IMG/VR virus record: IMGVR_UViG_3300017756_000027
Coordinates: 1 to 41,511 of that record
Source of the DNA: a virus
Reading direction: 5' to 3' (one strand)
Length of the DNA stretch: 41,511 nucleotides
The notes below the pieces were generated by a model. That model saw only the letters and a list, made by a program, of their open reading frames with translations, was not told the origin of the DNA and did not search any database. Below are positions 13-41,065 of this stretch, one piece after another. Numbering within the stretch: the first letter of the stretch is position 1; every line of letters starts with the position of its first letter. The position numbers were made by a program, and so were the translations under genes.

Positions 13-258
13 TCATGAGGATACGACCACTCTGGCCGTCAAGCTCGCACTCGCCACGTAGCAGGCGCCCGTTCCTACCCGCACCAGGGCCTCGCCGCGC
101 TTCAACGTGTGAAAAGGGGCATTGGCCGCGGGGGCGGCTGCCTGGAGCGTCACCTTAACGTCTCCCTGGCCGGTGTTCTCCACCAGGAAATCATCTGCGG
201 AGCCAGCCACTTCCACCCAGCCACCTGCCCGTGTCAAATCATGTACTTGCGTAGTCAT
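13..258 (-). CDS. 81-aa paralogue of the tail-module 80-aa protein
   Basis: Small soluble protein of unknown fold. It is clearly related to the protein at 26045-26287: by eye 38 of 58 residues are identical over the central alignment, including the block RVGTGACYVA and the segment APxxNAPFH. The C-terminus is beta-like. The stop (TGA, 13-15) overlaps by ATGA with the next start when the genome is circularised (ATG at 41506-41508), the same coupling seen between 26045-26287 and 25203-26048. The gene has its own promoter (314-342) and lies outside the structural operon. A role as chaperone or adaptor for the following RPWWLGV-tagged protein is inferred from this pairing. Start ATG at 258 has GAGG about 10 nt upstream. 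Confidence 0.85.
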   Translation of the reverse strand: MTTQVHDLTRAGGWVEVAGSADDFLVENTGQGDVKVTLQAAAPAANAPFHTLKRGEALVRVGTGACYVASASLTARVVVSS

Positions 259-260
259 TT

Positions 261-291
261 GAGGCGCCTCTAGGTTGCCTTGTTACGTAAC
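261..291. promoter_or_regulatory. Two perfect 10-bp palindromes in the leader of the 13-258 gene
   Basis: GAGGCGCCTC (261-270) and GTTACGTAAC (282-291) are each perfect palindromes, 11 bp apart. They lie between the -10 box at 314-319 and the start codon at 258. This is a typical place for repressor or regulator sites in a leader. The sequence shows the palindromes; the operator role is inferred. Confidence 0.45.
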
Positions 292-313
292 GTTTTGCCG
301 CTTAAGCCCCTCA

Positions 314-342
314 ATTGTAGGCAGGGGCAGGGGGGCAGTCAA
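314..342 (-). promoter_or_regulatory. Sigma70-type promoter for the 13-258 / 41200-41508 unit
   Basis: On the minus strand TTGACT (337-342) is followed after exactly 17 bp by TACAAT (314-319). Each hexamer matches five of six consensus bases. It points at the gene at 258-13 with a leader of about 50 nt. It is the best host-type promoter I can see in the window. Confidence 0.7.
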
Positions 343-1957: not shown

Positions 1958-2191
1958 ATGGCCAAGTTAAAAGCGTTAGTATATGCCACTGATCCGCCAG
2001 CGACTGTCGATGCCCATAGTATCCCAGAAGCGGGAGTAGGACGCACCCCTGGCTCCACCTGCATTTGGATTGTCTGGGGTAACCGCTATCGCCGGGTGAT
2101 TAGGACGCCCAAGCATGGCGCTTATATAAGGAGTGCAAACGCACCTGACGGAAGTGGGCGCATAAAAGTAGTGATAACCAACCTGCTTTAG
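1958..2191 (+). CDS. Hypothetical protein, 77 aa
   Basis: First gene of the plus-strand early block. Start ATG at 1958 follows TAGGTG. The protein is basic (PKHGAYIR, GSGRIK) with an aromatic stretch CIWIVWGNRYRR; no family recognised. The stop is at 2189-2191, where copy 1 of the repeated promoter-like element begins. Confidence 0.6.
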   Translation: MAKLKALVYATDPPATVDAHSIPEAGVGRTPGSTCIWIVWGNRYRRVIRTPKHGAYIRSANAPDGSGRIKVVITNLL

Positions 2192-2236
2192 ACCAAAGTA
2201 GCATGGCGCGATAAAACAGCATTACCTATAGTGAAC
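2191..2236 (+). promoter_or_regulatory. Copy 1 of a 46-bp promoter-like element
   Basis: Aligns without gaps to 4701-4746. The conserved core is ATGGCGCGATAA, then TTACCTATAGTGAAC. TATAGT is a plausible -10 box; the hexamer 17 bp upstream (TGGCGC) is a poor sigma70 -35, so an activator or other recognition may be needed. It immediately follows a stop codon and precedes the gene at 2306. Confidence 0.6.
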
Positions 2237-2305
2237 GCATAGAAAGACGAACCCAACGAAGCCAAAGAATCAAACGGACCCTAAGAAGCAAACGGAGCAA
2301 ACATC

Positions 2306-2671
2306 ATGCGTAAAATAGAACAGCAATTAGTAAATGCCCTACGCAACGGCCAAACGTTCAAAAGCGGCAACACCCAAGTGAAGGCTATCAGCGATCCCGG
2401 CGAACCTGTGAACCTAGGCGTACACCTGCACGGCCATTATATCGCCAGCTGGTGCCCGGAAACGGAAACGCTCACTATCCGCGATGCAGGCTGGCAAAGC
2501 GTCACCACCAAAAGCAGGCTAAATGCGCTATTAAGTACCTTCGCGCCAGCCTTTGGCATACGCCAAGCCAATTTCAAGTGGCTGCTGCTGGTATGGAATG
2601 GCACCGCTTTTAATGTACGCGATTGGTCGGGCAGCGCCGGATTCAAAAACAACCAACTGCTATGGAGCTAA
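2306..2671 (+). CDS. Conserved phage protein with GW-x-TTKSRLNALL motif, 121 aa
   Basis: Begins RKIEQQLVNALRNG, has a central LGVHLHGHYIA strand and the signature GWQSVTTKSRLNALL at about residues 63-77, and ends with a Trp-rich FKWLLLVWNG segment. From memory this layout belongs to a small family scattered through tailed phages of Gram-negative bacteria, of unknown function. It is the first gene after promoter-like copy 1 and is followed by the start at 2676. Confidence 0.8.
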   Translation: MRKIEQQLVNALRNGQTFKSGNTQVKAISDPGEPVNLGVHLHGHYIASWCPETETLTIRDAGWQSVTTKSRLNALLSTFAPAFGIRQANFKWLLLVWNGTAFNVRDWSGSAGFKNNQLLWS

Positions 2672-2675
2672 CATC

Positions 2676-3044
2676 ATGGCCAAGATCATCACTATCAAAG
2701 CGCCCGCCGTGCACACCAGCCAAAGCGCCGCGCTAGCGGAATGGGCAGCGCAACCGGGCGACCCGACCACCATCGACGTAATTGGCCAAGTGGCATGGCT
2801 AAAGGTAGCAGGCAAGCGCCACAAATGTTTCATCAACAGGGAGGGCAACGCCGTGAGCGACTACTCAACTGGCGCCCGCATTAGCACGCTAGGAGGTGCC
2901 TGGATCGACCTGCAAATGATAACTGGCCGATACCCGCGCCCACGCGACGCCGCGCAGTACCGCATTGACGCAATAGAGCGGGAGCATGGCCCGACCAGCA
3001 TACCCGACCGGATAAGCGGCAACTTTCCTACGCTAAATAAGTAG
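2676..3044 (+). CDS. Hypothetical protein, 122 aa
   Basis: I place the start at ATG 2676, after GGAGCTAACATC. A longer frame from 2553 would overlap the upstream gene by 119 nt without a better ribosome site. The protein begins MAKIITIKAP and has a strand-rich middle (VIGQVAWLKVAGKRHKCFINREG) and a basic C-terminal half with RYPRPRDAAQYR. No family recognised. It lies in a tightly packed early operon. Confidence 0.75.
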   Translation: MAKIITIKAPAVHTSQSAALAEWAAQPGDPTTIDVIGQVAWLKVAGKRHKCFINREGNAVSDYSTGARISTLGGAWIDLQMITGRYPRPRDAAQYRIDAIEREHGPTSIPDRISGNFPTLNK

Positions 3045-3057
3045 AGGAGCACTAATC

Positions 3058-3246
3058 ATGACCAAGCCTATTTATGCCACGCTGAAAAACGGTAAGCGCA
3101 TCGGTGCCACCCTCTTACCGGAAGGCAACGCCGCTATGGTCCACGTCGTAAAGGGACCGCGTGTTGGTGTGTTTAACCTAACGCGTTTTGAGGGTGGCAA
3201 GTTGACCTCCGACACACTGGCCAAGTTATTCAACGGCGATAGCTAA
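3058..3246 (+). CDS. Hypothetical protein, 62 aa
   Basis: Small basic protein beginning MTKPIYATLKNGKRIGATLLPEG, with a second strand pair VHVVKGPRVGVFNL. GAGGAGC precedes the ATG by about 7-8 nt. No family recognised. It is the fourth gene of the early run. Confidence 0.7.
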   Translation: MTKPIYATLKNGKRIGATLLPEGNAAMVHVVKGPRVGVFNLTRFEGGKLTSDTLAKLFNGDS

Positions 3247-3260
3247 CGGGAGCACTAATC

Positions 3261-3500
3261 ATGACTAACACTAAACTGTTAAACGCCAACGCGAGCAAAG
3301 CATCAAAGCGCCAGCACCGTAAACGCCTAGCGTGCCTAGTGCTAAGCCTCCTGGTAGCGGGCGCCATCGGAGCCTTAGCTTTCCAGCTGTGGGGTGAAGG
3401 CCGGGAAGTGGCGGCGATAGTGGTATCGCTCGGCGCCTTGTTCGTCCTGGTCACCATTGACGACATTGAAAGCCTGATAGGAGAGACACCATGCGATTAG
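3261..3500 (+). CDS. Small membrane protein, 79 aa
   Basis: A basic N-terminus (KASKRQHRKR) is followed by two hydrophobic segments at about residues 23-42 (LACLVLSLLVAGAIGALAF) and 49-66 (VAAIVVSLGALFVLVTI), with an acidic tail. By the positive-inside rule both ends should lie in the cytoplasm. Made early, it could modify the host membrane, for example in superinfection exclusion; this is inference. It overlaps the next gene by 10 nt. Confidence 0.75.
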   Translation: MTNTKLLNANASKASKRQHRKRLACLVLSLLVAGAIGALAFQLWGEGREVAAIVVSLGALFVLVTIDDIESLIGETPCD

Positions 3501-3709
3501 CTATCACTAATGACCTAGGTGGCGCGAGTCTGGTGGAATTGGTGTACCGGCCAGTCGCTAAGCGCGAAGGCGCCAACCGTACCGCTACCCGCTACGTGGC
3601 TAATATCAGAAACGTGGAAAAACGTGCACGCCGCGTCTATGAGGACTCACCGGGCAATTACTACGTAAACATCAAAGGCAAGCGGTATTACCTGGAGCTA
3701 AGATTATGA
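3491..3709 (+). CDS. Basic Arg/Tyr-rich protein, 72 aa
   Basis: Strongly basic, with RYVANIRNVEKRARRVYED and a C-terminal strand YYVNIKGKRYYLELRL. Composition suggests nucleic-acid binding, but no domain is recognised. The start overlaps the previous stop by 10 nt, with GGAGAGAC upstream, and the stop overlaps the next start by ATGA. Confidence 0.7.
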   Translation: MRLAITNDLGGASLVELVYRPVAKREGANRTATRYVANIRNVEKRARRVYEDSPGNYYVNIKGKRYYLELRL

Positions 3710-4071
3710 CGGATCTTGACCAATGGAGCCGCGCTAGTCAGCGCGCCAAACGGTACGGTAAGCCAGTGCTAGCCAAAATAGGCGATAACTGGCTACTGGT
3801 GCCTGAGACCCTGAACGGTGGCGCCCAAGCGCGAGCCATGTTCAAAGCCTATATTGACCGGCGCAATGGCATCGACACCGAGCCCCAATTGGTTGACTGC
3901 TGGAATTGCATAGTTAACGTCGTTAACACGTTAGATGCCCGAAAGCAGATGCCCGACGCCGTTAAAGTGCTTGCACGGTATCGCGTTAAGAAAGTAGACG
4001 AGCTGCCACGCGAATGGCGCCCAGCGCTACTGTATGACCTGAAACAACTACTAAAGGAGACCCGGCCATGA
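3706..4071 (+). CDS. Hypothetical protein, 121 aa
   Basis: Mostly helical, with no signal or membrane segment. It contains KIGDNWLLVPETL near the N-terminus and a Lys/Arg-rich C-terminal half (VLARYRVKKVDELPREWRP). It is coupled to both neighbours by ATGA overlaps. No family recognised. Confidence 0.7.
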   Translation: MTDLDQWSRASQRAKRYGKPVLAKIGDNWLLVPETLNGGAQARAMFKAYIDRRNGIDTEPQLVDCWNCIVNVVNTLDARKQMPDAVKVLARYRVKKVDELPREWRPALLYDLKQLLKETRP

Positions 4072-4484
4072 AACCTAAAAACGTAAAAATCCCTAGCCCC
4101 AGCAAGCCACATTTACACAAGTGGCAAGGGTACTGGCGCCTGGAGCCGCCGCTAAGTGGGCGCCAGTGCGACAGCGTTAGCGACTGGGAAAAGGCGCATT
4201 TCTTCCGGCACCGCCTCAACAATGACATTAATGCGGCACTGCCGCCTGGAGAGCTGGACGCTAGGCGTAAGCAATTCCAGCTCCCTTGGCCGCGAGACTG
4301 GGTAGACGATATCCTGGACGCTGCGCGACCTATCGGCGTTACCCGGTCTAATTGGGTAGAGGACGCACACCGGGTAGAGGAGCAAATGCGCCCACCTAAA
4401 CCGCCTAGTATCTGGCCATTTGCGCTAAGCTCGCTGATAGTGCTAGCGATATTTATGACAGTATTAGCTTATATAACCCAATGA
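4068..4484 (+). CDS. Tail-anchored membrane protein, 138 aa
   Basis: A soluble basic N-terminal part (about 110 aa, Trp- and Pro-rich) ends in one hydrophobic segment at about residues 115-136 (WPFALSSLIVLAIFMTVLAY). This predicts a C-terminal membrane anchor with the body in the cytoplasm. It starts in an ATGA overlap with the previous gene and is followed at 4494 by another membrane protein. No family recognised. Confidence 0.7.
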   Translation: MKPKNVKIPSPSKPHLHKWQGYWRLEPPLSGRQCDSVSDWEKAHFFRHRLNNDINAALPPGELDARRKQFQLPWPRDWVDDILDAARPIGVTRSNWVEDAHRVEEQMRPPKPPSIWPFALSSLIVLAIFMTVLAYITQ

Positions 4485-4493
4485 GGTGACCCC

Positions 4494-4706
4494 ATGCGCA
4501 AGCACTATTTAACCGACGCCCTGGTAACGTTACTGCCAGCCCTGATAGCAGGTGGCATAGGATACGGCGCCACCATTACCCTAGGCCGCATATCGCTGCT
4601 AGTAAGCGGTGCCAGTGGCATCACCTATACCCTGGCGCATTTAGCGCTACCTTTTGCCATCCTGGTGGTGTGCGTATGGGTAATAAATTATACGGATATA
4701 GACTAA
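4494..4706 (+). CDS. Small membrane protein, 70 aa
   Basis: Two or three hydrophobic segments cover most of the length (LVTLLPALIAGGIGYGATI; LALPFAILVVCVWVI). GAGGTGACCCC precedes the ATG. The stop at 4704-4706 lies inside copy 2 of the promoter-like element. Size and hydrophobicity resemble small holins, but its early location argues for a membrane-modifying role. Function unknown. Confidence 0.7.
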   Translation: MRKHYLTDALVTLLPALIAGGIGYGATITLGRISLLVSGASGITYTLAHLALPFAILVVCVWVINYTDID

Positions 4707-4746
4707 AGTCTAATGGCGCGATAAGACGCCTTTACCTATAGTGAAC
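4701..4746 (+). promoter_or_regulatory. Copy 2 of the 46-bp promoter-like element
   Basis: Gapless alignment to 2191-2236 and, over its first 18 bases, to the minus-strand site 1367-1384. It starts with the dyad GACT-AA-AGTC, which is perfect only in this copy. It precedes the gene at 4796 with a leader of about 50 nt. Confidence 0.6.
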
Positions 4747-4795
4747 ATGTAAGCAACGCAACGCCCTACACCAACGGTTTAACGGAGTACATACC

Positions 4796-5140
4796 ATGAG
4801 CGCAATTATAAACGCCATCCTGCAACACAAAGCTGGTCAAGCAAGCAGCCAGCGGGAGATTAACCATGTAGGCCCTACCACTGGCCACCATGAAACCGCT
4901 GGCGGCCTACGCGGCCATAGCATTGACCAGGAAACCTACCCATGGCGCACCCTCGGCCACCCCGGCGGCGCCTGGAGCGTGGTCGATGCCAATAGTAGGG
5001 AGCAAGCGCGTTTTACATACCAACGGCATGTAGGAGGTGGAGTTAACCTGACCCCTGAATACCTGGACGATATAGCTTGCGAGGAGGCCCATAGCCTAGC
5101 GCGCCGCCTTAAAATTGACTTCCCAACTGGCCGGGTTTAG
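4796..5140 (+). CDS. Hypothetical protein, 114 aa
   Basis: Soluble, His-rich N-terminal half (GHHETAGGLRGHS). It has an aromatic strand WRTLGHPGGAWSVVD and an acidic helix near the C-terminus. AACGGAG lies about 9 nt before the ATG. It is the first gene after promoter-like copy 2. No family recognised. Confidence 0.7.
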   Translation: MSAIINAILQHKAGQASSQREINHVGPTTGHHETAGGLRGHSIDQETYPWRTLGHPGGAWSVVDANSREQARFTYQRHVGGGVNLTPEYLDDIACEEAHSLARRLKIDFPTGRV

Positions 5141-5150
5141 GAGAGCTGAC

Positions 5151-5273
5151 ATGCCCTATGCACCTTGGGAAATGTGGGCGGCTGTACTAATCGGCCTGTT
5201 TGGGTGGGACGTGGCGCGCTATTGCTGGCGCCGCGCTACCGGCAAAATTGGACGCAAGGGAGAACGGCTATGA
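5151..5273 (+). CDS. 40-aa single-span membrane microprotein
   Basis: A short frame, MPYAPWEMWAAVLIGLFGWD, continues as VARYCWRRATGKIGRKGERL. AGGAGAG lies about 5 nt upstream of ATG 5151. There is one hydrophobic segment (residues 6-20) and a strongly basic C-terminal tail, so the tail should face the cytoplasm. Its TGA overlaps the next ATG (ATGA at 5270-5273), which supports both starts. Confidence 0.7.
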   Translation: MPYAPWEMWAAVLIGLFGWDVARYCWRRATGKIGRKGERL

Positions 5274-5692
5274 CCCTTTACCGTGATATGAGCAACCGGG
5301 AACTGGTGACCGCTGCCTTAGACTGGAAATCTGGCCGTAGTGCACAAGAGGCCGCGGCAAAGAGGCTACTGTACGCACTGGCCAAGCGGCTGGAGGAAAC
5401 GAGCAAACCTGCTAACGTAGTATGCCCGTCTAAGCGTGACATTGCCGCCGTGAACACACTGGAGGCCAAAGGATACGAATGGCGTGGAGGTGAGCAGTGG
5501 GCACCGCCGTTAGGCAAAATACCGGACCACCTGAATGATGAATCTGGGCTACCGCCACCTAACGTCCGGCCCACGTCGCTAGTTGACTTGTACGACCAAA
5601 AAGGGCTAAGCGTTGAGGTCCGCGAATGGCTAACGAAGCATAGGCCGGAGACGTGGCGCGAGTGCCTTAGCCACGGCGTAAACGTCAAGTAA
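5270..5692 (+). CDS. Hypothetical protein, 140 aa
   Basis: The start is taken at ATG 5270 (GGGAGAACGGCT upstream, ATGA overlap with the 40-aa protein), not at 5165, which would overlap that gene in another frame. It begins MTLYRDMSNRELVTAALDW. The N-terminal third is helical, the middle (GYEWRGGEQW) could be a small strand pair, and the C-terminus contains VREWLTKHRPETWRECL. No family recognised. Confidence 0.7.
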   Translation: MTLYRDMSNRELVTAALDWKSGRSAQEAAAKRLLYALAKRLEETSKPANVVCPSKRDIAAVNTLEAKGYEWRGGEQWAPPLGKIPDHLNDESGLPPPNVRPTSLVDLYDQKGLSVEVREWLTKHRPETWRECLSHGVNVK

Positions 5693-5729
5693 CCCATACT
5701 GTCAACCATTGAATTACTGGAGAACGACC

Positions 5730-6080
5730 ATGAATAGAGCAACTATAGCAATCGCCGCAGCAACCGGCCTAGTGATAGGACTATGGATAGCGGATGCCCT
5801 AGCCACTGAGCCCGACGCCGGTATTACGGTAACAGCTACCAATTACTGCGAGTTTGTCGGCGCTTTCTCCTATGCCGCGGGCCTGGACCGCGACCAAGGC
5901 GTTACCAAACGGGAGTCAGTGGCCACGCTATTGGCTGACGGCAGTCACCTGGATGATAGGCTGCAAGACGACCTACTGACGGCCATAGACCTTGTATATC
6001 TCGTTGACCTAGGCACGCCTAGCGAGGTAAGCGGGCTAGTGTTCGACGTGTGCCAAGAGACGTATGGGGAGCCCCTATGA
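5730..6080 (+). CDS. Predicted exported protein, 116 aa
   Basis: Start ATG 5730 follows TGGAGAACGACC. The N-terminus MNRATIAIAAATGLVIGLW looks like a signal peptide with possible cleavage after ADALA at about residue 25. The mature part has two cysteines (NYCEF and DVCQE) that could form a disulfide. An early exported protein could act in the periplasm, for instance to block a second infection; no family recognised. The stop overlaps the next start by ATGA. Confidence 0.7.
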   Translation: MNRATIAIAAATGLVIGLWIADALATEPDAGITVTATNYCEFVGAFSYAAGLDRDQGVTKRESVATLLADGSHLDDRLQDDLLTAIDLVYLVDLGTPSEVSGLVFDVCQETYGEPL

Positions 6081-6313
6081 CACCGCAGCACTATTTGCCC
6101 CCTGGCCGGTTAGCCCCGGCCATGCTCGGCTACTATATGTCGGACAATGTGCCCGGTACCGTGGTGGTGGCGTATCCGCATGCAGTGTTAGCGGCTTACG
6201 TAGAGAGCCCGCCCCCCGGTACCACAATGGACATGCTAGTGGCGATTTACGCTAGCAAGAAAGCAATAGAGGAGGTAGACGACGTACTAAAAAGATTGTT
6301 TAACGTGAAATAA
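6077..6313 (+). CDS. Hypothetical protein, 78 aa
   Basis: Start ATG 6077 is coupled to the previous stop (ATGA) and preceded by GGGGAGCC. The protein begins MTPQHYLPPGRLAPAMLGYY, has a strand VPGTVVVAYPHAVLAAYV and a C-terminal helix KKAIEEVDDVLKRLF. No family recognised. It ends the second early sub-operon; a 104-nt gap follows. Confidence 0.65.
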   Translation: MTPQHYLPPGRLAPAMLGYYMSDNVPGTVVVAYPHAVLAAYVESPPPGTTMDMLVAIYASKKAIEEVDDVLKRLFNVK

Positions 6314-6417
6314 GCGGTTGCATTAACCGTAAGACTACACTACCTTTAACTTACTGGCATTTAGCCAGCCACTAAACCCAAGAAAGACTTTTTAACCGAC
6401 ATAGGAAGGCCCTAGCC
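6314..6417 (+). promoter_or_regulatory. Intergenic gap with possible weak promoter
   Basis: A small hairpin CGGTT-GCATT-AACCG lies at the start of the gap. TTGCAT followed 17 bp later by TACCTT is a weak sigma70-like match upstream of the 6418 gene. No U-tract follows the hairpin. This is a candidate only. Confidence 0.25.
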
Positions 6418-7020
6418 ATGACCAAGCAAATAACTGCCGCCCAGTTTACAGAAGTAGCCGACCGCCTAGCCGACGAATGTGGCGAAAGCTGGCGCGCTAA
6501 CTTGGACGCCGCGGATCTTAGCGGCACAAATGAGTTAACGGCATCTTTGTTCCGCGATAACCGAGAGGAGTTTACCCGGCGCATTAATCAATTAGTCATC
6601 GCGTTAACCTCGCCGCATGGCGCTGTCATTGAGACGTTAGAGAGCCAGCTAGGCGACACAGTAGAGATAGCCGCTACTGAGGGGGGCGCGCCCGCTGTAC
6701 GTACCGCGGTGGCCGTAGTGGACGACGTAGGCGAGTTCAAGCTATTTTCGGACGCGCTGTTTGCAGGACTAACGGAAGCAGTAGCTGCCTTCGACAGCCA
6801 CGGGTACGCGATACAAGAGCTGGTAAAAGGATCTGGACGCGACAACAGCACTGAGTCACCTGAGATATTCTGGGGGATTGTGGCATCGCACGGGACGTTA
6901 GCAGGCGCGGCAATCGCTAAGCTTGGTGGCGACGAAAACGCCCCTGCTTACTGGTACGCCTTGAGTAAAAAGGCCCCTCGGTCTTCCGGCCTGGAAGCGC
7001 TACTCGCTGGCCTGAACTAA
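6418..7020 (+). CDS. Hypothetical protein, 200 aa
   Basis: Acidic, Ala-rich, mostly helical protein starting MTKQITAAQFTEVADRLADE. AGGAAGG lies about 9 nt upstream of the ATG. No membrane segment, zinc site or enzyme motif is visible. It stands alone between gaps of 104 and 83 nt. No family recognised. Confidence 0.75.
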   Translation: MTKQITAAQFTEVADRLADECGESWRANLDAADLSGTNELTASLFRDNREEFTRRINQLVIALTSPHGAVIETLESQLGDTVEIAATEGGAPAVRTAVAVVDDVGEFKLFSDALFAGLTEAVAAFDSHGYAIQELVKGSGRDNSTESPEIFWGIVASHGTLAGAAIAKLGGDENAPAYWYALSKKAPRSSGLEALLAGLN

Positions 7021-7103
7021 ACACCGTAAGATATAGTGCTGTGACGGGCTACCCAGGCGGCCCGCTACCCTAACCTAACTAGTGAACCTCATGGAGCATC
7101 ATC

Positions 7104-7628
7104 ATGACCACGAAGAAAACTACCTCGAAAAGCACCACCGCAAAAAAGACGACTGGCAAGGCAAAGACGGAGGATCTAGCCAAGGGGTACGGAGCGGGCC
7201 AGCGCGAGCCGTCATCCACCAAAACGGTAGCGCCAGAGTCATCTACCGCGCCAGCCACGTCCGACGGCCCCGCTATCACTAACGAGTCGGGCAACACTCA
7301 CCCTCATACCAAAGAGGAGGAGATTGGCCAAGCACTGCACCACGACGACGCGCACAGCCAGCTGGACGCCACTAACCGCGAGGTGCCGGAGCCGGAAGTA
7401 GAGGAAGCGCCAGCGGAACTCAGTCAGATTGAGCAGGAGGACTACCAAGCAGGCCGTGAAGCCTCGCAACGAGGTTTCCCGGTAAGAGTATGCCCTCACC
7501 CCCAGGGCAGCGAGCAACGCGAAGTGTGGCTGCGCGGGTACCACGACCATGCCCACCCAAAGTCTAACGCTACCGTGGTGCCGGACGACGGCAACACCGA
7601 AGGTGGCCCGTACCGAGGGAGCTACTAG
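7104..7628 (+). CDS. Protein with C-terminal RMF-like domain, 174 aa
   Basis: The first 25 residues are Lys/Thr-rich, like a histone tail (TTKKTTSKSTTAKKTTGK). A low-complexity Pro/Glu/Thr region follows. Residues about 112-153 carry YQAGREASQRG, CPHP and REVWLRGYHDH, which fits the ribosome modulation factor pattern (AxxAG, CP, R-x2-WLxGW). RMF itself is about 55 aa and dimerises 70S ribosomes in stationary phase. Here the domain is fused to a long basic/acidic extension. GGAGCATCATC precedes the ATG. The domain assignment is by pattern; a role at the host ribosome is inferred. Confidence 0.7.
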   Translation: MTTKKTTSKSTTAKKTTGKAKTEDLAKGYGAGQREPSSTKTVAPESSTAPATSDGPAITNESGNTHPHTKEEEIGQALHHDDAHSQLDATNREVPEPEVEEAPAELSQIEQEDYQAGREASQRGFPVRVCPHPQGSEQREVWLRGYHDHAHPKSNATVVPDDGNTEGGPYRGSY

Positions 7629-7630
7629 GC

Positions 7631-7846
7631 ATGTCCGACTTAGCCGATAGAGCAGATGCGTATATCCAGAAAGCGGTGCAAGAGGGCATCGCTTCTGCCC
7701 TGGTCAATGAGAACGGACTAAAGCCCATCGGCGTATGCCGGTGGTGTGGTGACCCGGTAGACCAGGGCAGGACGCACTGCCGACCCATCGACAATGCTTG
7801 CGCTGAGGACCACGCCAAGTATCAACGTAACAAGCAGGGAGTATAG
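7631..7846 (+). CDS. DksA/TraR-like zinc-finger protein, 71 aa
   Basis: The N-terminus MSDLADRADAYIQKA followed by a helix fits small TraR-type proteins. The second half has CRWCG (residues about 36-40), then HC and CAEDHAKY, giving up to four Cys plus His as zinc ligands. TraR/DksA proteins enter the RNA polymerase secondary channel and mimic ppGpp/DksA control. The spacing of the second cysteine pair (C-x6-C) differs from the classical C-x2-C, so it may be a divergent member or another zinc ribbon. It starts 2 nt after the RMF-like gene. Confidence 0.6.
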   Translation: MSDLADRADAYIQKAVQEGIASALVNENGLKPIGVCRWCGDPVDQGRTHCRPIDNACAEDHAKYQRNKQGV

Positions 7847-7850
7847 GACC

Positions 7851-8078
7851 ATGCCCAAAGCCAAAGTTAGCCATGACGCGGAGCTAACAGCCCTGGTAGA
7901 CCGGGCCAAAGCGTTACGCGTACCCATTAGTGAAATGTGTGATGCGTGTGGTGAAACCCACGTCACTATCTGGCGCTGGCAGTACAGTGATATTGCCACC
8001 TGGAAGCGCCGCGAAGCCTTCATCAGGGCCGCCACGCAGTACCTGGACGACGCCCAAACTAAGTACGCTGAGCTATGA
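7851..8078 (+). CDS. Small helix-turn-helix protein, 75 aa
   Basis: Start ATG 7851 follows TATAGGACC. A longer frame from 7794 overlaps the previous gene. Residues about 22-50 (ALRVPISEMCDACGETHVTIWRWQ) look like a helix-turn-helix of the Cro or transposase-helix type, with a basic second half. It is the best candidate in the window for a phage transcription regulator, possibly acting at the TGTAACCCC sites; that link is speculative. The stop overlaps the next start (ATGA). Confidence 0.65.
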   Translation: MPKAKVSHDAELTALVDRAKALRVPISEMCDACGETHVTIWRWQYSDIATWKRREAFIRAATQYLDDAQTKYAEL

Positions 8079-8596
8079 GCCCCCACCGGGAAGTCATCAT
8101 CGCCGCTGACCCCGGTGCGCTGGGGGCGATAGCAGTAGTGGTAGACGGCCAATTGGCCGAGGTGGAAGACATGCCGTATCACACCATGGAGATAGGAGGC
8201 ACTAACCGTAAGCGCGTGGACCCGTATACGTTGGATGGGATTCTACGCAGCATGGTGACCAGCCATGTTGGCCCGCTAGATGACTTTTTCTGTGTGGTGG
8301 AGGAGGTAGGCCCTATGCCTAAAGACGGCCCCACCCAGGCGTTTAACTTTGGCGCCGCCTACATGGCCGTGGTGATGGCATTTGTGGTACACCGTTGGCC
8401 CATGCACCGCATCACCCCGCCAGTGTGGAAGCGTGGCCTAAAGTTGCGCAAGGGGAAGGACGCAGCACGACAGCGTGCCAGTGAGCTGTTTCCCAGCCAT
8501 AGCGCTGAGTTCGCCAGGGTAAAAGACGACGGCAGGGCGGAAGCCGCGTTACTGGGCTACTACATTCACCTGCAACGCGTAAAGGGGGAGTTATGA
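8075..8596 (+). CDS. RuvC-like Holliday junction resolvase, 173 aa
   Basis: RNase H-fold nuclease of the phage RuvC type. It begins with a strand carrying the first catalytic Asp (IIAADPG, D12). It has E76/E77 in CVVEEVGPM, the PTQAFNFG segment typical of RuvC, and the C-terminal acidic cluster KDDGRAEAALLG (D151, D152, E156). Length matches bacterial RuvC. It should cut branched DNA during replication, recombination or packaging. The start overlaps the previous stop, and the stop overlaps the zinc-ribbon gene at 8593. Confidence 0.85.
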   Translation: MSPHREVIIAADPGALGAIAVVVDGQLAEVEDMPYHTMEIGGTNRKRVDPYTLDGILRSMVTSHVGPLDDFFCVVEEVGPMPKDGPTQAFNFGAAYMAVVMAFVVHRWPMHRITPPVWKRGLKLRKGKDAARQRASELFPSHSAEFARVKDDGRAEAALLGYYIHLQRVKGEL

Positions 8597-8772
8597 CCAA
8601 GGTCACCACCAAGGCGTGCTGGAACTGCGGCAGTACCCGGCTGCGCGAGTATAGCAGCATCAACGAGAAACACTGTGACGAGTGCCTATCCATCATGCCT
8701 TGGCATACGGAAGGCGACCAGAAACCCACGGTAGGCCCTAGCCGTGACCGTGACACTATAACGAGAGAGTGA
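8593..8772 (+). CDS. Zinc-ribbon protein, 59 aa
   Basis: A short frame in ATGA overlap with the RuvC-like gene (stop 8594-8596) and preceded by GGGGGAGTT. It has CWNCG near residue 9 and HCDEC near residue 27, a CxxC...CxxC zinc ribbon of 19-residue spacing, followed by a polar tail. No specific family. A zinc ribbon next to a resolvase suggests DNA or RNA contact. Confidence 0.7.
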   Translation: MTKVTTKACWNCGSTRLREYSSINEKHCDECLSIMPWHTEGDQKPTVGPSRDRDTITRE

Positions 8773-8782
8773 GGCCGTACCC

Positions 8783-9514
8783 ATGGAACTACTAAAGCAA
8801 GATTTGATACGCGTTGTAACTCGGTTACCGAAAGATGTTCGTAACCTCATTAAAACGCACGGGCTGTACTTAGCAGGGGGGTTTATAAGGGAGCAAGTAG
8901 CAGGCAATGAGCCTAAAGATATCGACTTGCTAGCGGTAGACACAGCGACGCTGTACACAGCCGGTAACGACCTGGAATCCGTAAGACTGCGTGAGGGCGA
9001 GAAGACTCGGCAACTGAAAACAGACAACGCGGTGACAGTCATCACCCCTAATCGCATATCCGTGCAGCTTATCCACCGCTGGCTGTTTAGCACCCCGGAG
9101 GAGTGCGCTGCTAGCTTTGACTTTACGGTGTGCCAAGCCGTTGTGTGGTGGGCGGATGACGCATGGCATAGTTACGTGGTGCCGGAGTTTTACCCGGATC
9201 TAGCTTCCCGGCGCTTGCGGTATACGTTTCCAGACCGCAATGAGGATGCTGGAGGCAGTATCCTTCGGGTACGCAAGTTTTTGCATCGTGGATATCATAT
9301 TGACGCTGACGAACTAGCTAAGGTCATTGCGAGATTGGCCGGGGCGGTGGACTGGACCCGTTCGATAGTTAAGACCGACGAAGGCGCAGCCCAGGTACTC
9401 AAGGGGCTGTTGCGCGAAGTTGATCCACTGTTAGTGGTGGACGGCATTTTCCCCGAAGACGAGGGGGGTATCATATCGTCGGAATTCAAGCAGACACCCC
9501 CGATAGAGGATTAA
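8783..9514 (+). CDS. Nucleotidyltransferase-like protein, 243 aa
   Basis: Residues 29-50 read YLAGGFIREQVAGNEPKDIDLL. The pattern GGF-x-R plus D-x-D (D46, D48) is that of the poly(A) polymerase/CCA-adding nucleotidyltransferase fold. FDFTVCQAVV (about residues 112-121) could supply the third acid. The remainder has no clear RNA-binding domain, and the protein is shorter than cellular CCA enzymes. Substrate unknown: it could modify tRNA, nucleotides or protein. Confidence 0.75.
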   Translation: MELLKQDLIRVVTRLPKDVRNLIKTHGLYLAGGFIREQVAGNEPKDIDLLAVDTATLYTAGNDLESVRLREGEKTRQLKTDNAVTVITPNRISVQLIHRWLFSTPEECAASFDFTVCQAVVWWADDAWHSYVVPEFYPDLASRRLRYTFPDRNEDAGGSILRVRKFLHRGYHIDADELAKVIARLAGAVDWTRSIVKTDEGAAQVLKGLLREVDPLLVVDGIFPEDEGGIISSEFKQTPPIED

Positions 9515-9518
9515 CCCA

Positions 9519-9791
9519 ATGGCCCGTTATAAATCCGTTTGGCAAGCCGAAGACGGCAGCTACCACGAAGACGAGCAAGCCGCTAAGTTACACGAAGCTA
9601 ACTGCCACTTGGCAGAGAACTTACGTCGGTTCATCCCACCGGAAGCCGTTGGCACAAAGCACTTTGCCAGGGCGATAGACTGGATACTTAGCGAGTACGA
9701 CCGCAAGCCTCCGGCTAATCGACCCCCCACTGCCAAGGGACCAGAACCCATCATATGCGCCGAGGACGAAGATCATGGCTACCACGTTTAG
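9519..9791 (+). CDS. Hypothetical protein with W-x-AEDGS-DE motif, 90 aa
   Basis: The N-terminus (KSVWQAEDGSYHEDEQAAKLHE) resembles that of the protein at 10038-10520 (KTVWVADGSKDEFATESEAIHWE), so the two are probably paralogues of a small domain common in phages. A helical part LAENLRRFIPPEA follows. Function unknown. It overlaps the next gene by 17 nt. Confidence 0.7.
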   Translation: MARYKSVWQAEDGSYHEDEQAAKLHEANCHLAENLRRFIPPEAVGTKHFARAIDWILSEYDRKPPANRPPTAKGPEPIICAEDEDHGYHV

Positions 9792-10038
9792 GGCAGAGTG
9801 GGTGCATAGGTCCGGGTACCGATGCCCTGTGCTGCCGGAAACAGGTGGACCGCGGAGCGAATGGCACCGGGAATTTACCCTTAGCGCTAAAGTGGATGGC
9901 ATACAGTTCCACGCCCGCCACAAAGAGCTTTCCTCATCGCCCAGAGTTGAGGAGGTAGAGTTTACAGAGTTCATAAAGCGGCAGCTAGCAAAGAAAATAG
10001 CGGCCCACGTAACTACCCGGATACTAGGAGAATTATAA
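9775..10038 (+). CDS. Hypothetical protein, 87 aa
   Basis: Basic protein starting MATTFRAEWVHRSGYRCPVLP, with a C-terminal helix FIKRQLAKKIAAHVTTRIL. It overlaps the upstream gene by 17 nt and the downstream start by one base (TAATG). No family recognised. It sits between two related genes (9519 and 10038). Confidence 0.65.
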   Translation: MATTFRAEWVHRSGYRCPVLPETGGPRSEWHREFTLSAKVDGIQFHARHKELSSSPRVEEVEFTEFIKRQLAKKIAAHVTTRILGEL

Positions 10039-10520
10039 TGGCTACTAAGAAAACTGTATGGGTGGCAGACGGCAGCAAAGACGAGTTTGCGACTGAATCC
10101 GAAGCCATCCACTGGGAGCGTGTTCTGTTCACAGCGGAACGGTTACGAGGCATAGCCTCCGGTTTAACCGAAAAAGACCGCCGCGCCATAGCAGCCTGGA
10201 CGCTGACGCATTTTGTGCCCAAGTCCAGCGACGGCCCCCAGGCCGCTTACCCGCCAAAGGTACACGGCCCTGGTGCGCCGCAGCCATACGCTCAGCCGCA
10301 ACCGCCAGCGCCCGCCAATCAGCACTCTGGCAACTGCACATGCGCGAACTGTGTGCCCAAGTCCAGCGACAGCCCCCAGGCCGCTTACCCACCAGCGCCT
10401 TCTGCAGTGCCCCCGGCCCCAAAGCATCCAGTGGGAGCGTGCAACTGCGGAGGCGTGGGCTATTACGACGCCAGTAGGCACGACGACACCTGTCCTTACC
10501 GCGCATCATACGGGCAGTAG
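10038..10520 (+). CDS. Pro/Cys-rich protein with internal repeat, 160 aa
   Basis: The N-terminal domain (about 55 aa) is related to the protein at 9519. A Pro/Gln/Ala-rich linker follows, in which VPKSSDxPQAAYPP occurs twice. The C-terminal part has CTCANC, then ACNCGG and DDTCPY, which could form one or two metal sites. It appears to be a modular fusion of a small conserved domain, a repeated linker and Cys-rich segments. Function unknown. Start ATG 10038 is in a one-base overlap with the previous stop. Confidence 0.7.
   Translation: MATKKTVWVADGSKDEFATESEAIHWERVLFTAERLRGIASGLTEKDRRAIAAWTLTHFVPKSSDGPQAAYPPKVHGPGAPQPYAQPQPPAPANQHSGNCTCANCVPKSSDSPQAAYPPAPSAVPPAPKHPVGACNCGGVGYYDASRHDDTCPYRASYGQ
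10213..10394 (+). repeat. Direct repeat of about 41 bp inside the 10038-10520 gene
   Basis: The unit beginning GTGCCCAAGTCCAGCGAC at about 10216 recurs at about 10354 with two or three mismatches over 41 bp, and encodes VPKSSDxPQAAYPP both times. The spacing of 138 bp is a multiple of three, so recombination between copies would keep the frame. Confidence 0.8.
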
Positions 10521-10522
10521 CC

Positions 10523-10762
10523 ATGGCCAAGTCGTTCGGGTGCCACTGCGGCGAAGGCTACCGGCCCGTTAAGGCTAGGGCGTGGGTAGCCATCACCCGC
10601 AGGATACATAACGAACCCCCGCGCTCGGCCACTGTGAAGTGCCTGGAGTGCGGGAAGCTTGGCCGGTCTAACGCCGCATACGTGGATCTAATACCTTACG
10701 CACCAACGTGGCAGGAGCTGGCGAAGCTGCAATCTGCCCACCTAGATAAAAAGGATAGTTAA
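10523..10762 (+). CDS. Zinc-binding-type small protein, 79 aa
   Basis: Contains CHCG near residue 7 and CLECGK near residue 40, a possible four-Cys zinc site with a long insertion, and a basic stretch ITRRIHNEPPR between. It starts 2 nt after the previous stop and shares one base with the next start (TAATG at 10760-10764). No family recognised. Its tie to the helicase gene suggests a replication-related accessory role, but this is only context. Confidence 0.7.
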   Translation: MAKSFGCHCGEGYRPVKARAWVAITRRIHNEPPRSATVKCLECGKLGRSNAAYVDLIPYAPTWQELAKLQSAHLDKKDS

Positions 10763-12117
10763 TGCCGACGCTTGAGCCGGAACAGTGGGAAGGCGTGGCG
10801 TTCCTGAGAGGGAATACCCGCGCCATACTGGGCGACCGCCAGGGGTACGGCAAGACAGCCCAGTTCCTGACCGCAGCAAAGGAGTTGGGCGCCCAGCGCA
10901 TCGTGGTAGGGTGCCCAGCGGTAGCCAGGATCAACTGGGAGCGGGAAGCGGTTAAGTGGGGCCTGGATCTGCCCGTGGTACGCATCACAGGCCCCCAGGA
11001 CCATGGCAAGCCTCATCCGACCAAGCCCCAGCTAGTAATCACCAGCTATGATGCTGTTGCCAGATCCGCCAAGTTACGCAGGAGCCTTAACGCGGGCGTG
11101 TGGGACGTTTTAGGGCTAGATGAGGCCCACCGCCTTAAGACGCCTGACGCTAACCGCACAAAGGCTATTTACGGCAGTAGGATCGACGGCCAGAAGTGTT
11201 TGGCTGGCAAGGCGTTATATCGGTGGCTATTGACAGCCAGCATCATGCCAAACGGCCCGCACGAACTGTGGACGCACCTAGCTGCAAATTGGCCGGAGCT
11301 AATTTCTGACAATTTATCGAATATCGTACTTGACATAGAGGGGTTTCTTAACCGATATTGTCTTACACAGTATTCAGAATACGGAGTACCAAAGGTTATA
11401 GGGTACAAAGACGCCGAAGGGCTCCGGCAGATACTGCAGCAAATTATGTTACGGCGAACATTCATCAAGGGGCTACCACCCGCCGTCGTAAGGGAAGACC
11501 CGTACTTGGTAGAGGTGGAAAGCGAGGAGCTGAAAGCGCTGGAAGCCCATGAGGAGTTTGAGGATCTGCGGGCGGTACTGGAGAGTGCCAGCGCACGAAG
11601 CCAAGGGCTGGAGGGGATAGACGACGAATACCTCTACTTGGCCACGCTACGCAGGCTGACAGGGCTCCTCAAAGTAAAGCCGGTGGCGGAGCGAGTAGAG
11701 GCAGAATGGGTACCGGGCACTAAGCTAACGATATTCTGCCTGCACCGGGAAGTGATAGAACAGTTACAGCTGGCTCTGGCCAAATACCAACCGGCAGTCA
11801 TACATGGCGGCGTACCAGACAGCAAGCGTAACGAGGAGATAGACCGGTACAACACTGACGAGAATTGCGGCGTTTTTATTGGCCAGATACAAGCCACTAA
11901 GGAGGCCATCAACTTACCGGCGACCACCAATGTTTGGCTAATGGAGTCAAGCTGGTCACCGGAAGACAACGCGCAGTGTATAGCGCGAGCAAGACGGCGG
12001 GGCAGCACGCACCAAGTGTTTGCAGAAGCAGTAGCCATCGCCGGTAGCATTGACGAAGTAGTAGCAATCGTAAACCTAAGAAAGACCCTAAACGTTAAGA
12101 TTCTATTGGAGCAATAA
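10762..12117 (+). CDS. SNF2-type superfamily 2 helicase/ATPase, 451 aa
   Basis: Walker A variant GDRQGYGKT (24-32), motif Ia-like IVVGCPAVARINWEREA, DEAH box D120-H123, a second RecA lobe with FCLHREVIEQL and a motif VI-type QCIARARRRG (about 405-414). The order and spacing match small phage SNF2-like helicases, which lack accessory domains. It should translocate on duplex DNA with ATP, removing proteins or helping fork or recombination steps. It heads the replication module. It is compact compared with bacterial SNF2 proteins (over 900 aa) but complete. Confidence 0.9.
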   Translation: MPTLEPEQWEGVAFLRGNTRAILGDRQGYGKTAQFLTAAKELGAQRIVVGCPAVARINWEREAVKWGLDLPVVRITGPQDHGKPHPTKPQLVITSYDAVARSAKLRRSLNAGVWDVLGLDEAHRLKTPDANRTKAIYGSRIDGQKCLAGKALYRWLLTASIMPNGPHELWTHLAANWPELISDNLSNIVLDIEGFLNRYCLTQYSEYGVPKVIGYKDAEGLRQILQQIMLRRTFIKGLPPAVVREDPYLVEVESEELKALEAHEEFEDLRAVLESASARSQGLEGIDDEYLYLATLRRLTGLLKVKPVAERVEAEWVPGTKLTIFCLHREVIEQLQLALAKYQPAVIHGGVPDSKRNEEIDRYNTDENCGVFIGQIQATKEAINLPATTNVWLMESSWSPEDNAQCIARARRRGSTHQVFAEAVAIAGSIDEVVAIVNLRKTLNVKILLEQ

Positions 12118-12120
12118 ACC

Positions 12121-12639
12121 ATGACTACCCGTATCCACACACAAGTAACGCTGTTCGGCCTAGCCTGTGAAGCGATTATCGAAGCTGACTCAGCCCAGGC
12201 AGCGCGTCACGAACTTGAAACGCTAACGGGCGGCGCAGGTACACCGGCTGCTGACACCCCAAAGCCCCAAGCAACGCCGGAGCCAGCGAAAGCAGAGGCT
12301 CAGTCAACCCCGGCAAAAACGGCCCCCGCTGCCACTCAAAGTGCCCCTGCAACACCCTCCGCGGCGGCTTCTGCCCCGACACCGGATGCTACCGCCTCTG
12401 CCACGACAACGCCTACGCCCAACAGTCAAGCTGCACCGACTCCTCCACCGGCAGCCGCGGAACAGCCAGCTGGCGAGAGCATCATCAACAAGGCGCGTGA
12501 GCTGTTAGGCCGTGAAGGCGGCGAAGCGTACCTGCAGTGGGCCTTGGGCCAAGTAGGCGCGGCAACGGTAGGCACCACGCCCGCCGACAAGCAGGGTGAG
12601 CTGCTACAGCACATCAAAACCGGCCTAGGCGAAGCGTAA
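12121..12639 (+). CDS. Pro/Ala/Thr-linker protein, 172 aa
   Basis: A short N-terminal domain (about 38 aa, TQVTLFGLACEAIIEADSA) is followed by about 80 residues of Pro/Ala/Thr-rich disordered linker and a C-terminal helical domain (SIINKARELLGREGGEAYLQ to the end). The layout suggests two small binding modules on a flexible tether. It lies between the SNF2-type and DUF2800 genes, so it probably bridges replication or recombination proteins. No family recognised. Confidence 0.7.
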   Translation: MTTRIHTQVTLFGLACEAIIEADSAQAARHELETLTGGAGTPAADTPKPQATPEPAKAEAQSTPAKTAPAATQSAPATPSAAASAPTPDATASATTTPTPNSQAAPTPPPAAAEQPAGESIINKARELLGREGGEAYLQWALGQVGAATVGTTPADKQGELLQHIKTGLGEA

Positions 12640-12675
12640 GAATTACAATTCACCAGTCAACTGGAGTAACGAACT

Positions 12676-14133
12676 ATGACTGAGCCCGCCCACTACCCAC
12701 GCGGCCCCTCTGGGGCCCATAGGTGGCTTTTGTGCACAGACAGCCCCGCTGCTGAGGAAGGCTATCCAGACAGCACCAGTGATGCCGCTGACGAAGGTAC
12801 CGCGGCCCACTGGTTGCTGGAACAGTGCCTCAATGCTGGCCTGGACGCCCAGGATTGGGTAGAACAGACAACCGATCCTATCGGCACTGACGGCGCCAAG
12901 GTGGTACCCGCTGGCAAGGAAACGGGTGCCGTTAAGCCCTGGCCCATTACGGGTGAAATGATCGAAAGCGTGCAGATACATATTGACACCTTCAAACCTG
13001 ACCTGGAGAAAAAAGGCACCCGTGCGTTCTTTGAGGAGCGGGTGCGTATCGACCACGCACTGGGACTGAACGTACCCATTGGCGGTACCGCTGACACTAT
13101 CATTTACTTGCCCCGGTCCAAGACGCTTAAGGTCGGTGACTTTAAGTATGGCAAGGGTCACGTCGTTGAGGTGAAGGGCCAAGGCGGCACCGTCTATGAA
13201 CGTGATGAAGTTACCGGCAAGTGGAACGAAGTAAAGGCGCCTGACTGGGGCATCAACCCACAGCTGGGTATGTACGCCCTAGGCGCCCTGGTAGAGCTGG
13301 AGCGGCTGCTAGGTGAAAAGCGCGAAGTTAAGACCATTGAGCTTATCGTCGTGCAGCCACGGGCGTACCACAAGAAAGGTGCCGTGCGTAAGGTGAAGCT
13401 GGCCCCCGCGGACCTAATGAAACTGGAGTTTGCCATCGTTAACGCGGTGACCGGCCCCCAGGTACGGGTACCGGGCGATCACTGCCACTTCTGTAAGGCG
13501 AAACTGGACTGTGAGGCGCGTGCCGAAGCGCTGGGGGCCAAGGCTACCGCTGACTTTGAAGGCGAAGCTAACCCGCTGGCAGAAAACGACACAGCACCTG
13601 AGTCAAAGGCCGTGGTGCCCGCAGAGTCAGCTAACTTGGTGACCGTGCTAGGCCACCCGGCCAAAGGGCTGTCGCTCAACGATCTGGGCAACGTGCGTAA
13701 ACTACTGCCCGCCATCAAGGAGTGGATCAAGGAGGTTGAAGCCGAAATAGCGGTACGCCTTAAACATGAGTATAAGGTTCCCGGTGTACGCTTAGGCATT
13801 GGCCGAGGCAGCCGTGCTTACGGCGGTAACGAGGACGACTTACGCATCGCCGCGGCCCGTACTGCCCAGGAATTAGGCGTAGAGTTTAGCGCACTGCACG
13901 AACCGGCTGTGCTAAAGTCCCCGGCCAAGCTGGAAAAAGAGTTTGGCGAGAAAAAGTTCAAGACGACCACGCTATCCACTCTGGTCACTAAGACCGAAGG
14001 CGGACCCGTGGTAGTTGACGAAGACAGCGACACCCCTGACTGGGTGCCCCACAGTGGCTTTGGGGAAGCGGAACAAGCACCTACGGTGCCCGACGAACCT
14101 AAGCCGGACGTAGCCGGTAGCCACCTGCTGTAA
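12676..14133 (+). CDS. DUF2800 PD-(D/E)XK nuclease with probable Fe-S cluster, 485 aa
   Basis: Starts with the DUF2800 signature SGAHRWLLC. The nuclease core is GGTADT (D140) followed by VGDFKYGKG (D155, K157), the D-(D/E)xK pattern of RecB/Cas4-type exonucleases. C20, C270, C273 and C279 give the one-plus-three layout with C-x2-C-x5-C that binds a 4Fe-4S cluster in Cas4 and AddB. The C-terminal 150 residues are variable. It likely processes DNA ends next to the ssDNA-binding protein encoded directly downstream. GGAGTAACGAACT precedes the ATG. Confidence 0.85.
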   Translation: MTEPAHYPRGPSGAHRWLLCTDSPAAEEGYPDSTSDAADEGTAAHWLLEQCLNAGLDAQDWVEQTTDPIGTDGAKVVPAGKETGAVKPWPITGEMIESVQIHIDTFKPDLEKKGTRAFFEERVRIDHALGLNVPIGGTADTIIYLPRSKTLKVGDFKYGKGHVVEVKGQGGTVYERDEVTGKWNEVKAPDWGINPQLGMYALGALVELERLLGEKREVKTIELIVVQPRAYHKKGAVRKVKLAPADLMKLEFAIVNAVTGPQVRVPGDHCHFCKAKLDCEARAEALGAKATADFEGEANPLAENDTAPESKAVVPAESANLVTVLGHPAKGLSLNDLGNVRKLLPAIKEWIKEVEAEIAVRLKHEYKVPGVRLGIGRGSRAYGGNEDDLRIAAARTAQELGVEFSALHEPAVLKSPAKLEKEFGEKKFKTTTLSTLVTKTEGGPVVVDEDSDTPDWVPHSGFGEAEQAPTVPDEPKPDVAGSHLL

Positions 14134-14186
14134 CTAGCAGGCGTAAGTACCCTAAGTAACCAACGTATCCAGAGAGGAACGCCCCC

Positions 14187-14954
14187 ATGGGACGAGTGAC
14201 AACTAAACCAGTGCAAACCACGTTCGGCTACCTATTCCAGCCTAAAGTGGATAACGTGAAAGACAACGCCACCGGCCAAACGGTCCAAAAGCAGAAATGG
14301 CAGATCACTCCCATTTTTGACCAGGACAGCCCGGAGCAAGCGGCATCACTGCAGGAGTGCATTAACGACGCCTACGCGGTGGGATTGGAGGAGTTTGGCG
14401 AGCATTTCTGGGCCATGGTCCAGCAAAATTCGGTACGCTGGCCTTTCCGCAATGGTTCCGATATCAACCCTAAAACTGGCCAGCCACGTTTCTCCGGCAA
14501 CAAGGTGTACATCAACTGCTCCAGCCAGTCTAAGCCTGACGTAGTAAGCCGTTACGCGGCCCAGGGTGACGCCGGGCTCAAGCCGCGTAAGATCGAAGAC
14601 GCCAGCGAATACTACTGGGGCCAGTTTGCACGGGTTAACATAACGTTCAAGGCGTACAAGCGCTCTGACGGTCGGGGTATCGCGGCCTACGTTAACGGCG
14701 TTCAACTGTGGCACGAAGGCGAACGTTTAGGCGAAGGCCAGTTCGACGGCCAGGAGCACTTCGACGCCGAGGGTGCCCCAGAAGCCGCATACGGTCCTGG
14801 TGGTGGTGGCGCAGCGCCTACGCCTCCCGCAGCTGCTGGTGGCCCGCCGACGCCTCCCCCTGGAGTGGCAGCACCGGCAGCACCGGCAGCGCCAGCCCCC
14901 TCAGCACCACCGGTACCGCAGCCGCCCCAGGTAGGCGGAGGCGGTTTACTGTAA
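14187..14954 (+). CDS. DUF2815 ssDNA-binding protein, 255 aa
   Basis: OB-fold-type phage single-strand DNA-binding family. Diagnostic stretches are QTTFGYLFQP near the N-terminus, NPKTGQPRFSGNKVYINCSS in the middle and GQFARVNITFKAYKRSDGRG plus GIAAYVNGVQLWHEGERLG at the end of the core. The last 60 residues are a Gly/Pro/Ala-rich tail. SSB tails usually end in acidic or hydrophobic residues; this one ends GGGLL. It follows the DUF2800 nuclease, the pairing expected for phage replication/recombination modules. The start may also be ATG 14187 only, as GAGAGGAACGCCCCC precedes it. Confidence 0.85.
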   Translation: MGRVTTKPVQTTFGYLFQPKVDNVKDNATGQTVQKQKWQITPIFDQDSPEQAASLQECINDAYAVGLEEFGEHFWAMVQQNSVRWPFRNGSDINPKTGQPRFSGNKVYINCSSQSKPDVVSRYAAQGDAGLKPRKIEDASEYYWGQFARVNITFKAYKRSDGRGIAAYVNGVQLWHEGERLGEGQFDGQEHFDAEGAPEAAYGPGGGGAAPTPPAAAGGPPTPPPGVAAPAAPAAPAPSAPPVPQPPQVGGGGLL

Positions 14955-14960
14955 GGCCCT

Positions 14961-15055
14961 TGCCCCTTGGCGACAGGGGGCATCGGGTTGACGACACCCA
15001 ATAACCGTTTCACAGCGGGTGATCTAGCGCTCACATTGGTGTCGTCAACCCGATG
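14961..15055 (+). promoter_or_regulatory. Tandem hairpins with an 18-bp perfect inverted repeat before the DNA polymerase gene
   Basis: A first hairpin pairs TGCCCC (14961-14966) with GGGGCA (14977-14982). A second, much larger one pairs CATCGGGTTGACGACACC (14981-14998) perfectly with its complement at 15038-15055; one bulged C allows four more pairs (CAAT/ATTG). The spacer is about 39 nt. No U-run follows, so it is not a normal terminator. It ends 20 nt before the polymerase ATG (15076) and could be an operator, an RNA control element or an initiation site. Confidence 0.8.
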
Positions 15056-15075
15056 ATAATGATAAGGACCCTACC

Positions 15076-17130: not shown

Positions 17131-17139
17131 GGTTTCACG

Positions 17140-40923: not shown

Positions 40924-41065
40924 CGGGCTGCTCCAGTTCGGCGGCGAAGTCGTGCGCCTCGCGCTCAGTGATACCGTTATGATCGGCTAGGAGGAGAAAG
41001 TCGTCCCAGTTCTCCTTTAGAAATTGGCTAAACAGGTTAGCCGCGATGGGGTTGATCTTAGGCAT
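40913..41065 (-). CDS. 50-aa protein, first gene of the late operon
   Basis: A short frame not shadowed by any other gene: MPKINPIAANLFSQFLKENW, then DDFLLLADHNGITEREAHDF and an end AAELEQPDGR. It is acidic and helical. Stop TAA at 40913-40915 overlaps the next start by 11 nt, an arrangement of translational coupling. The Shine-Dalgarno is weak (ACGAG region). No family recognised. Confidence 0.6.
   Translation of the reverse strand: MPKINPIAANLFSQFLKENWDDFLLLADHNGITEREAHDFAAELEQPDGR

Follow-up and report, generated by a model that had tools for sequence, protein, structure and literature searches.

Two coupled gene pairs in one short-tailed phage

We analyzed the entire viral record IMGVR_UViG_3300017756_000027 from IMG/VR (41,511 bases; hereafter, the window), an uncultivated short-tailed phage with genes for portal, capsid, terminase, family A DNA polymerase, primase/helicase, and an Enc34-type ssDNA-binding protein. 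A scan of its large genes revealed no phage RNA polymerase. The leftward genes, from about 41,065 to 19,693, are the late genes, and the rightward genes, from about 1,958 to 19,617, are those for replication. Since the two ends of the record overlap by 19 nt, the map is circular. Two minus-strand genes at either end of the window, one of 81 codons (13-258) and one of 102 (41200-41508), adjoin on this map and overlap by ATGA; they are adjacent, as the original prediction had it, but the "genome junction" at which it placed them is a mere linearization point.

We refer to this pair as cassette 1 and to its products as base 1, a putative spike-base (socket) protein, and client 1, a putative alternative spike. 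The main cassette, also on the minus strand, encodes the 80-aa base 2 (26045-26287) and the 281-aa client 2, a LamG-like spike (25203-26048), with an identical ATGA overlap, so that the coupling earlier ascribed to both pairs is present in each. Its neighbors include a tail-fiber-like gene (27724-28314) and an ejection-like gene (26370-27341). A third gene of this cassette, of unknown function, encodes 142 aa (24778-25206, minus strand) and is homologous to gp38 of Cobetia phage Carin1 (43%); no copy of it lies behind cassette 1. Genes of this gp38 family (~130-142 aa) were regularly seen 3' of a LamG-like gene at other loci of our survey (L005, L033-L036, L038-L045, and L052).

Base 1 and base 2 are 59-60% identical, and no third copy was found within the record. 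They are closer to each other than to the other family members found (34-46%), which come from L005, L033/L034, Pseudomonas phage vB_PsaM_M1, and Erwinia Henunavirus phages. Five other phage records hold one copy each, and the window alone holds two; in vB_PsaM_M1, L005, and L033, the base-family gene stands 5' of a LamG-like gene. Different codons are used for 29 of the 48 residues identical between base 1 and base 2, which indicates an old duplication with selection acting. A pattern scan using the 81-aa protein alone returned no relative. Naming the base from PHROG or Pfam was dropped, the sole match being a weak one to phrog_4772, function unknown. Structure prediction of the ~80-aa protein, a check suggested with the original prediction, brought little: the AF2 model of base 2 is all-beta and weak (pLDDT 66.6, pTM 0.56), and Foldseek with this weak model gave no match in PDB or BFVD. 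Likewise, a profile of the family matched no spike base in PDB. No member turned up in bacteria when 275 genomes from the taxonomic family of a Halomonas genome and 369 from its class were searched, with no positive control.

Cassette 1 carries a copy of the late-operon control module

Ahead of cassette 1 lies the consensus-like sigma70 promoter that had been called at 314-342, a minus-strand site (342-314) matching at 10/12 positions with a 17-nt spacer. It is the sole site genome-wide to reach at least 10/12 with 17-nt spacing; when spacers of 15-19 nt are allowed, five other sites reach 10/12. The site forms part of a promoter/leader module, P1 (279-343, minus strand), composed of ATTGACT-N17-TACAAT (343-314), GCTTAAG (307-301), and CGTAACAAG (287-279). 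ATTGACT-N17-TAC occurs with zero mismatch at two genome sites, P1 and 41135-41109, and the latter belongs to P2 (41074-41135, minus strand), a second copy of the module with a weaker -10 than that of P1. Within both P1 and P2, this promoter-like sequence is followed by GCTTAAG and CGTAACRAG; the composite module, a pattern chosen after inspection, did not occur in 300 Markov sequences. P2 is located just behind a hairpin at 41166-41150 and ahead of the first late gene, a 50-aa ORF recognized by its translation (40913-41065, minus strand), where the late operon starts.

The hairpin (41150-41166, minus strand) has a 6-bp stem followed by the T-rich ATTTTTATT and closes cassette 1. A scan of the genome returned fewer such hairpins than shuffled sequences did, so the terminator call is one of position, and cassette 1 probably has its own terminator, as had been proposed. 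The leader palindromes reported earlier are present as sequence, but the predicted folding of the P1 leader does not surpass that of shuffled sequences (z=+1.4).

A 9-mer, TGTAACCCC, lies upstream of P1 (442-450, minus strand), inside the P2 spacer (41116-41124, minus strand), and at three plus-strand positions before the rightward genes (1629-1637, 1753-1761, and 1821-1829). These five genome copies compare with 0.39 expected, and 0 of 100 shuffles reached five; all are intergenic, in a genome that is 6% intergenic by the gene list used, and fall in three control regions only. By its distribution, TGTAACCCC is likely the operator of a phage regulator. It marks both the P1 and the P2 unit, and since it stands upstream of P1 but inside the P2 spacer, the timing of cassette 1 could differ. 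The non-coding stretch preceding the rightward genes (1432-1829) contains, at 1432-1485, a tandem repeat of 9 bp and, further on, iteron-like copies of GAATGAC..TGTGACGG at 1491, at 1576, and, inverted, at 1771; it is a possible replication origin or regulator site.

The original prediction had taken cassette 1 for a moron-like unit expressed outside the late program, with a possible role in superinfection exclusion or receptor masking. Its own promoter and terminator stand as sequence signals. However, P1 and its leader duplicate the module found at the start of the leftward late operon, which leaves expression outside the late program unsupported, as are superinfection exclusion and receptor masking; the tagged partner is, moreover, best read as a virion spike. 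Instead, cassette 1 would most likely be made at or near late time and, most simply, would be a separate unit under the phage's own control, together with the late genes. Nor does its composition look foreign: the GC content of the two genes (0.63 and 0.55) is genome-like (genome, 0.57; late genes, 0.52-0.61; base 2, 0.61), so nothing marks cassette 1 as a moron by origin, and a moron assignment on composition was rejected. No relatives spanning the cassette 1 site were found, the closest, L011 and L053, being fragments that end short of it.

The two clients share an N-terminal tag

Cassette 1 had been described as a second copy of the main cassette, and this applies to the first gene; in the second gene, only a tag matches. 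Similarity between client 1 and client 2 is confined to residues 1-21 (12/21 identical, BLASTP E=3e-7), encoded at 41446-41508 and 25986-26048, respectively. The tags, MKVINCPIDVFRPWWLGVKRR in the 102-aa protein and MNVLGFPSTTYRPWWLGVTRR in the 281-aa protein, have the core ...RPWWLGVxRR, and their match score was reached by 0 of 2000 shuffles. When the client bodies were compared with each other without the tag, the score was below that of shuffles. Full-length paralogy of the clients was therefore ruled out, since the remaining 81 residues of client 1 show no relation to client 2. Of the 12 tag residues that are identical, six have different codons in the two genes, so it is the peptide that has been kept by selection, not the DNA.

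The label "LamG-like" for client 2 draws little from Pfam, where the match to Laminin_G_3 (E=0.078, 13.6 bits) is below the 27.6 cut-off, but homology to Carin1 gp39 is solid (41% over 111 residues, tblastn). For the client 1 body past residue 21, no relative was found in PHROGs, Pfam, PDB, phages, or IMG/VR; a match to the 102-aa protein in Halomonas was discarded, as it falls in an unrelated sugar-metabolism-type ORF. A single-sequence AF2 model of client 1 was poor (pLDDT 51.7), with a low-confidence segment at residues 12-33 followed by beta strands, and at that quality it was not used for a fold search. Such a model would be compatible with a plug, a linker, and a small beta domain. The RPWWLGV tag was found in this phage only: in none of the 20 IMG/VR contigs that match the DNA pattern does it form the N-terminus of a protein encoded after a base, and the tags in other members of the window base family are only loosely alike.

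Bases and N-terminal tags vary jointly around a conserved LamG body

An alignment of the conserved region of client 2 and its relatives led us to 19 viral and 2 genomic loci, and we compared their upstream genes and N-termini. Across these loci, the LamG body is kept, but the base varies, and the first ~20 residues vary with it. Bases of the RcGTA/Carin1 family (alignment A5, which matches Rcc01079 at 2e-11) go with Gly-Leu/Ile-rich tags in 4/4 cases, namely, Carin1, L043, L044/L045, and, in weaker form, L049, and none of the 17 other tags is of this kind; by exact count, the chance of this split is 1 in 5985, for a base/tag division that was hand-sorted post hoc. The LamG bodies of L011 and the window are 87% identical, but the first ~25 residues are unrelated, as is the end of the upstream gene (L011 1-130 against window 25986-26048). 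This reads as a clean plug exchange at the gene start, probably with the socket exchanged along with the plug.

The myovirus locus L069 has two free bases of a third family (5241-5516 and 5538-5831, minus strand) and a LamG gene, all following the gene for the major capsid protein. Another copy of that base, the third (3046-4038, minus strand), is fused in-frame to a LamG body. Together, the fusion, the gene order, and the covariation suggest that base and LamG protein belong to one structure, in which the N-terminal peptide is the plug. Two loci of Halomonas sp. S3-1-1, L051 and L052, have LamG-like spike genes with no preceding small base of the known families; these sites in one Halomonas genome are probably prophages.

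The window base family showed no profile similarity to Rcc01079 or Carin1 gp40 (hhalign probability 0.2), whereas, in the comparison case, a Carin1-type base profile matched Rcc01079 at 2e-11. We therefore do not file the window family as a member of theirs. Judged by its genomic context, however, the ~80-aa family looks like a spike base.

Candidate functions of cassette 1

We propose, with a probability of about 0.6, that the products of cassette 1 form another virion spike in two parts, a second base and an alternative short spike on the same plug. The ~80-aa protein would be the base, or socket, probably forming an oligomer on the virion, most likely at the capsid vertices by analogy with RcGTA and Carin1. 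The client would be a fiber or spike held through its N-terminal ~21 residues (...RPWWLGVxRR), which would plug into the base, and the ATGA overlap would couple the synthesis of plug and socket. Base and tag would have been duplicated together, after which the conserved plug of cassette 1 came to bear a distal domain that is short and unrelated. With an unrelated body on a conserved plug, the phage could display second or mixed spikes beside the LamG-like one. Against this reading stand the absence of profile similarity between the window base family and the known bases, the weak AF2 model, and the restriction of RPWWLGV to one phage.

The same plug and socket could instead sit on the tail, the ~80-aa protein serving as a tail or fiber adaptor and the clients as alternative receptor-binding tips. 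The main cassette lies amid tail and ejection genes, the L068 cassette is found behind fiber-type genes, and in vB_VmeM-32 the LamG-like gene is behind a tail-repeat gene; with no capsid genes beside the cassette in either the window or L068, it may belong to the tail. Conversely, the corresponding Carin1 base is a head spike, the bases and LamG gene of L069 come after the gene for the major capsid protein, and the L005 cassette follows portal and minor head genes. By analogy, Carin1, L069, and L005 point to head placement, and we regard a tail adaptor as rather unlikely. A different role for client 1 would be that of a short cap or assembly competitor, filling the sockets that base 1 or base 2 provides and thereby limiting the number of LamG spikes. 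The identical tag core and the 60% identity of the bases suggest cross-fitting, and the client 1 body has just ~80 aa; however, binding domains of such small size are common, and a competitor would not need the dedicated, coupled base that client 1 has, so that this role appears improbable.

We consider it very improbable that cassette 1 is a moron expressed outside the late program and acting on the host surface in superinfection exclusion or receptor masking. The sigma70-like promoter and the terminator-like hairpin of its own would suit such a unit, as would a difference in timing arising from the unequal placement of TGTAACCCC at P1 and P2. Yet the P1 module is common to the late-operon promoter and the composition is genome-like, a virion-type base and a docking tag would be unexpected for a host-surface factor, and inspection of the translations by eye revealed no evident signal peptide or hydrophobic stretch.

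A second virion spike thus remains our preferred reading of cassette 1. Tailed phages and gene transfer agents grip host capsules with the aid of head spikes, and, to our knowledge, the exchange of head-spike parts has hardly been described. Across phages, the spike body is retained and plug and socket vary jointly; in this phage, conversely, one plug type carries two unrelated bodies. This pattern suggests a short docking code for phage surface proteins and a possible route by which a phage could diversify its binding, and it gives hypothetical proteins in several phages a candidate function. In its fullest form, which we offer tentatively and with some doubt, the window would hold a new socket family with a swappable ~20-residue plug, duplicated such that spikes of two exchangeable kinds occur on one virion, perhaps in mixture on shared sockets; the second of these kinds would have a new, short binding domain.

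Comparison with known two-part spikes

Carin1 gp40 is annotated in its record as a head spike base, structurally identified and validated, and is identical to chain 8cjz_h, "Spike Base Protein"; the Carin-1 structure paper is cited in a later paper (PMC13317679). In Carin1 (PQ119497), gp40, the cryo-EM-verified head-spike base, is followed by gp39 and gp38. The window's main cassette resembles this set in having a small base, a LamG-like spike, and a ~135-142-aa gene in the same order, with genes overlapping or nearly so, and in the homology of its spike and third gene to gp39 and gp38. It differs in that its base comes from another sequence family and in that gp39 begins with MLGLGLG, not with an RPWWLGV tag; moreover, the Carin1 record contains no further cassette with a base from the window's family.

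In RcGTA, the N-terminal peptide of the fiber binds, or plugs into, a base pentamer (PMC7296036). Rcc01079/Rcc01080 (GhsA/GhsB) are thus like the window pairs in combining a small base with a fiber anchored via an N-terminal peptide, although the RcGTA base has no sequence relation to the window's and both peptide and fiber body differ. Carin1 gp39 opens with a Leu-Gly repeat, the same as the RcGTA fiber peptide, whereas the tags of client 1 and client 2 lack this repeat and have RPWWLGVxRR in its place. L069, a 77-kb IMG/VR record, also has several base paralogues around a LamG body in one phage, but they are of a third base family and one of them is fused straight to a LamG body, with no separate tag. 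In L005, L033/L034, and vB_PsaM_M1, a LamG-like gene comes after a window-family base, and L005 and L033/L034 have the third gene next in line; these cassettes, however, occur as a single copy per record and with other tags. In both window pairs, the small base gene lies directly upstream of the fiber gene, as in the RcGTA/Carin1-type system, and the cassette 1 pair is most likely a variation on the known two-part spike.
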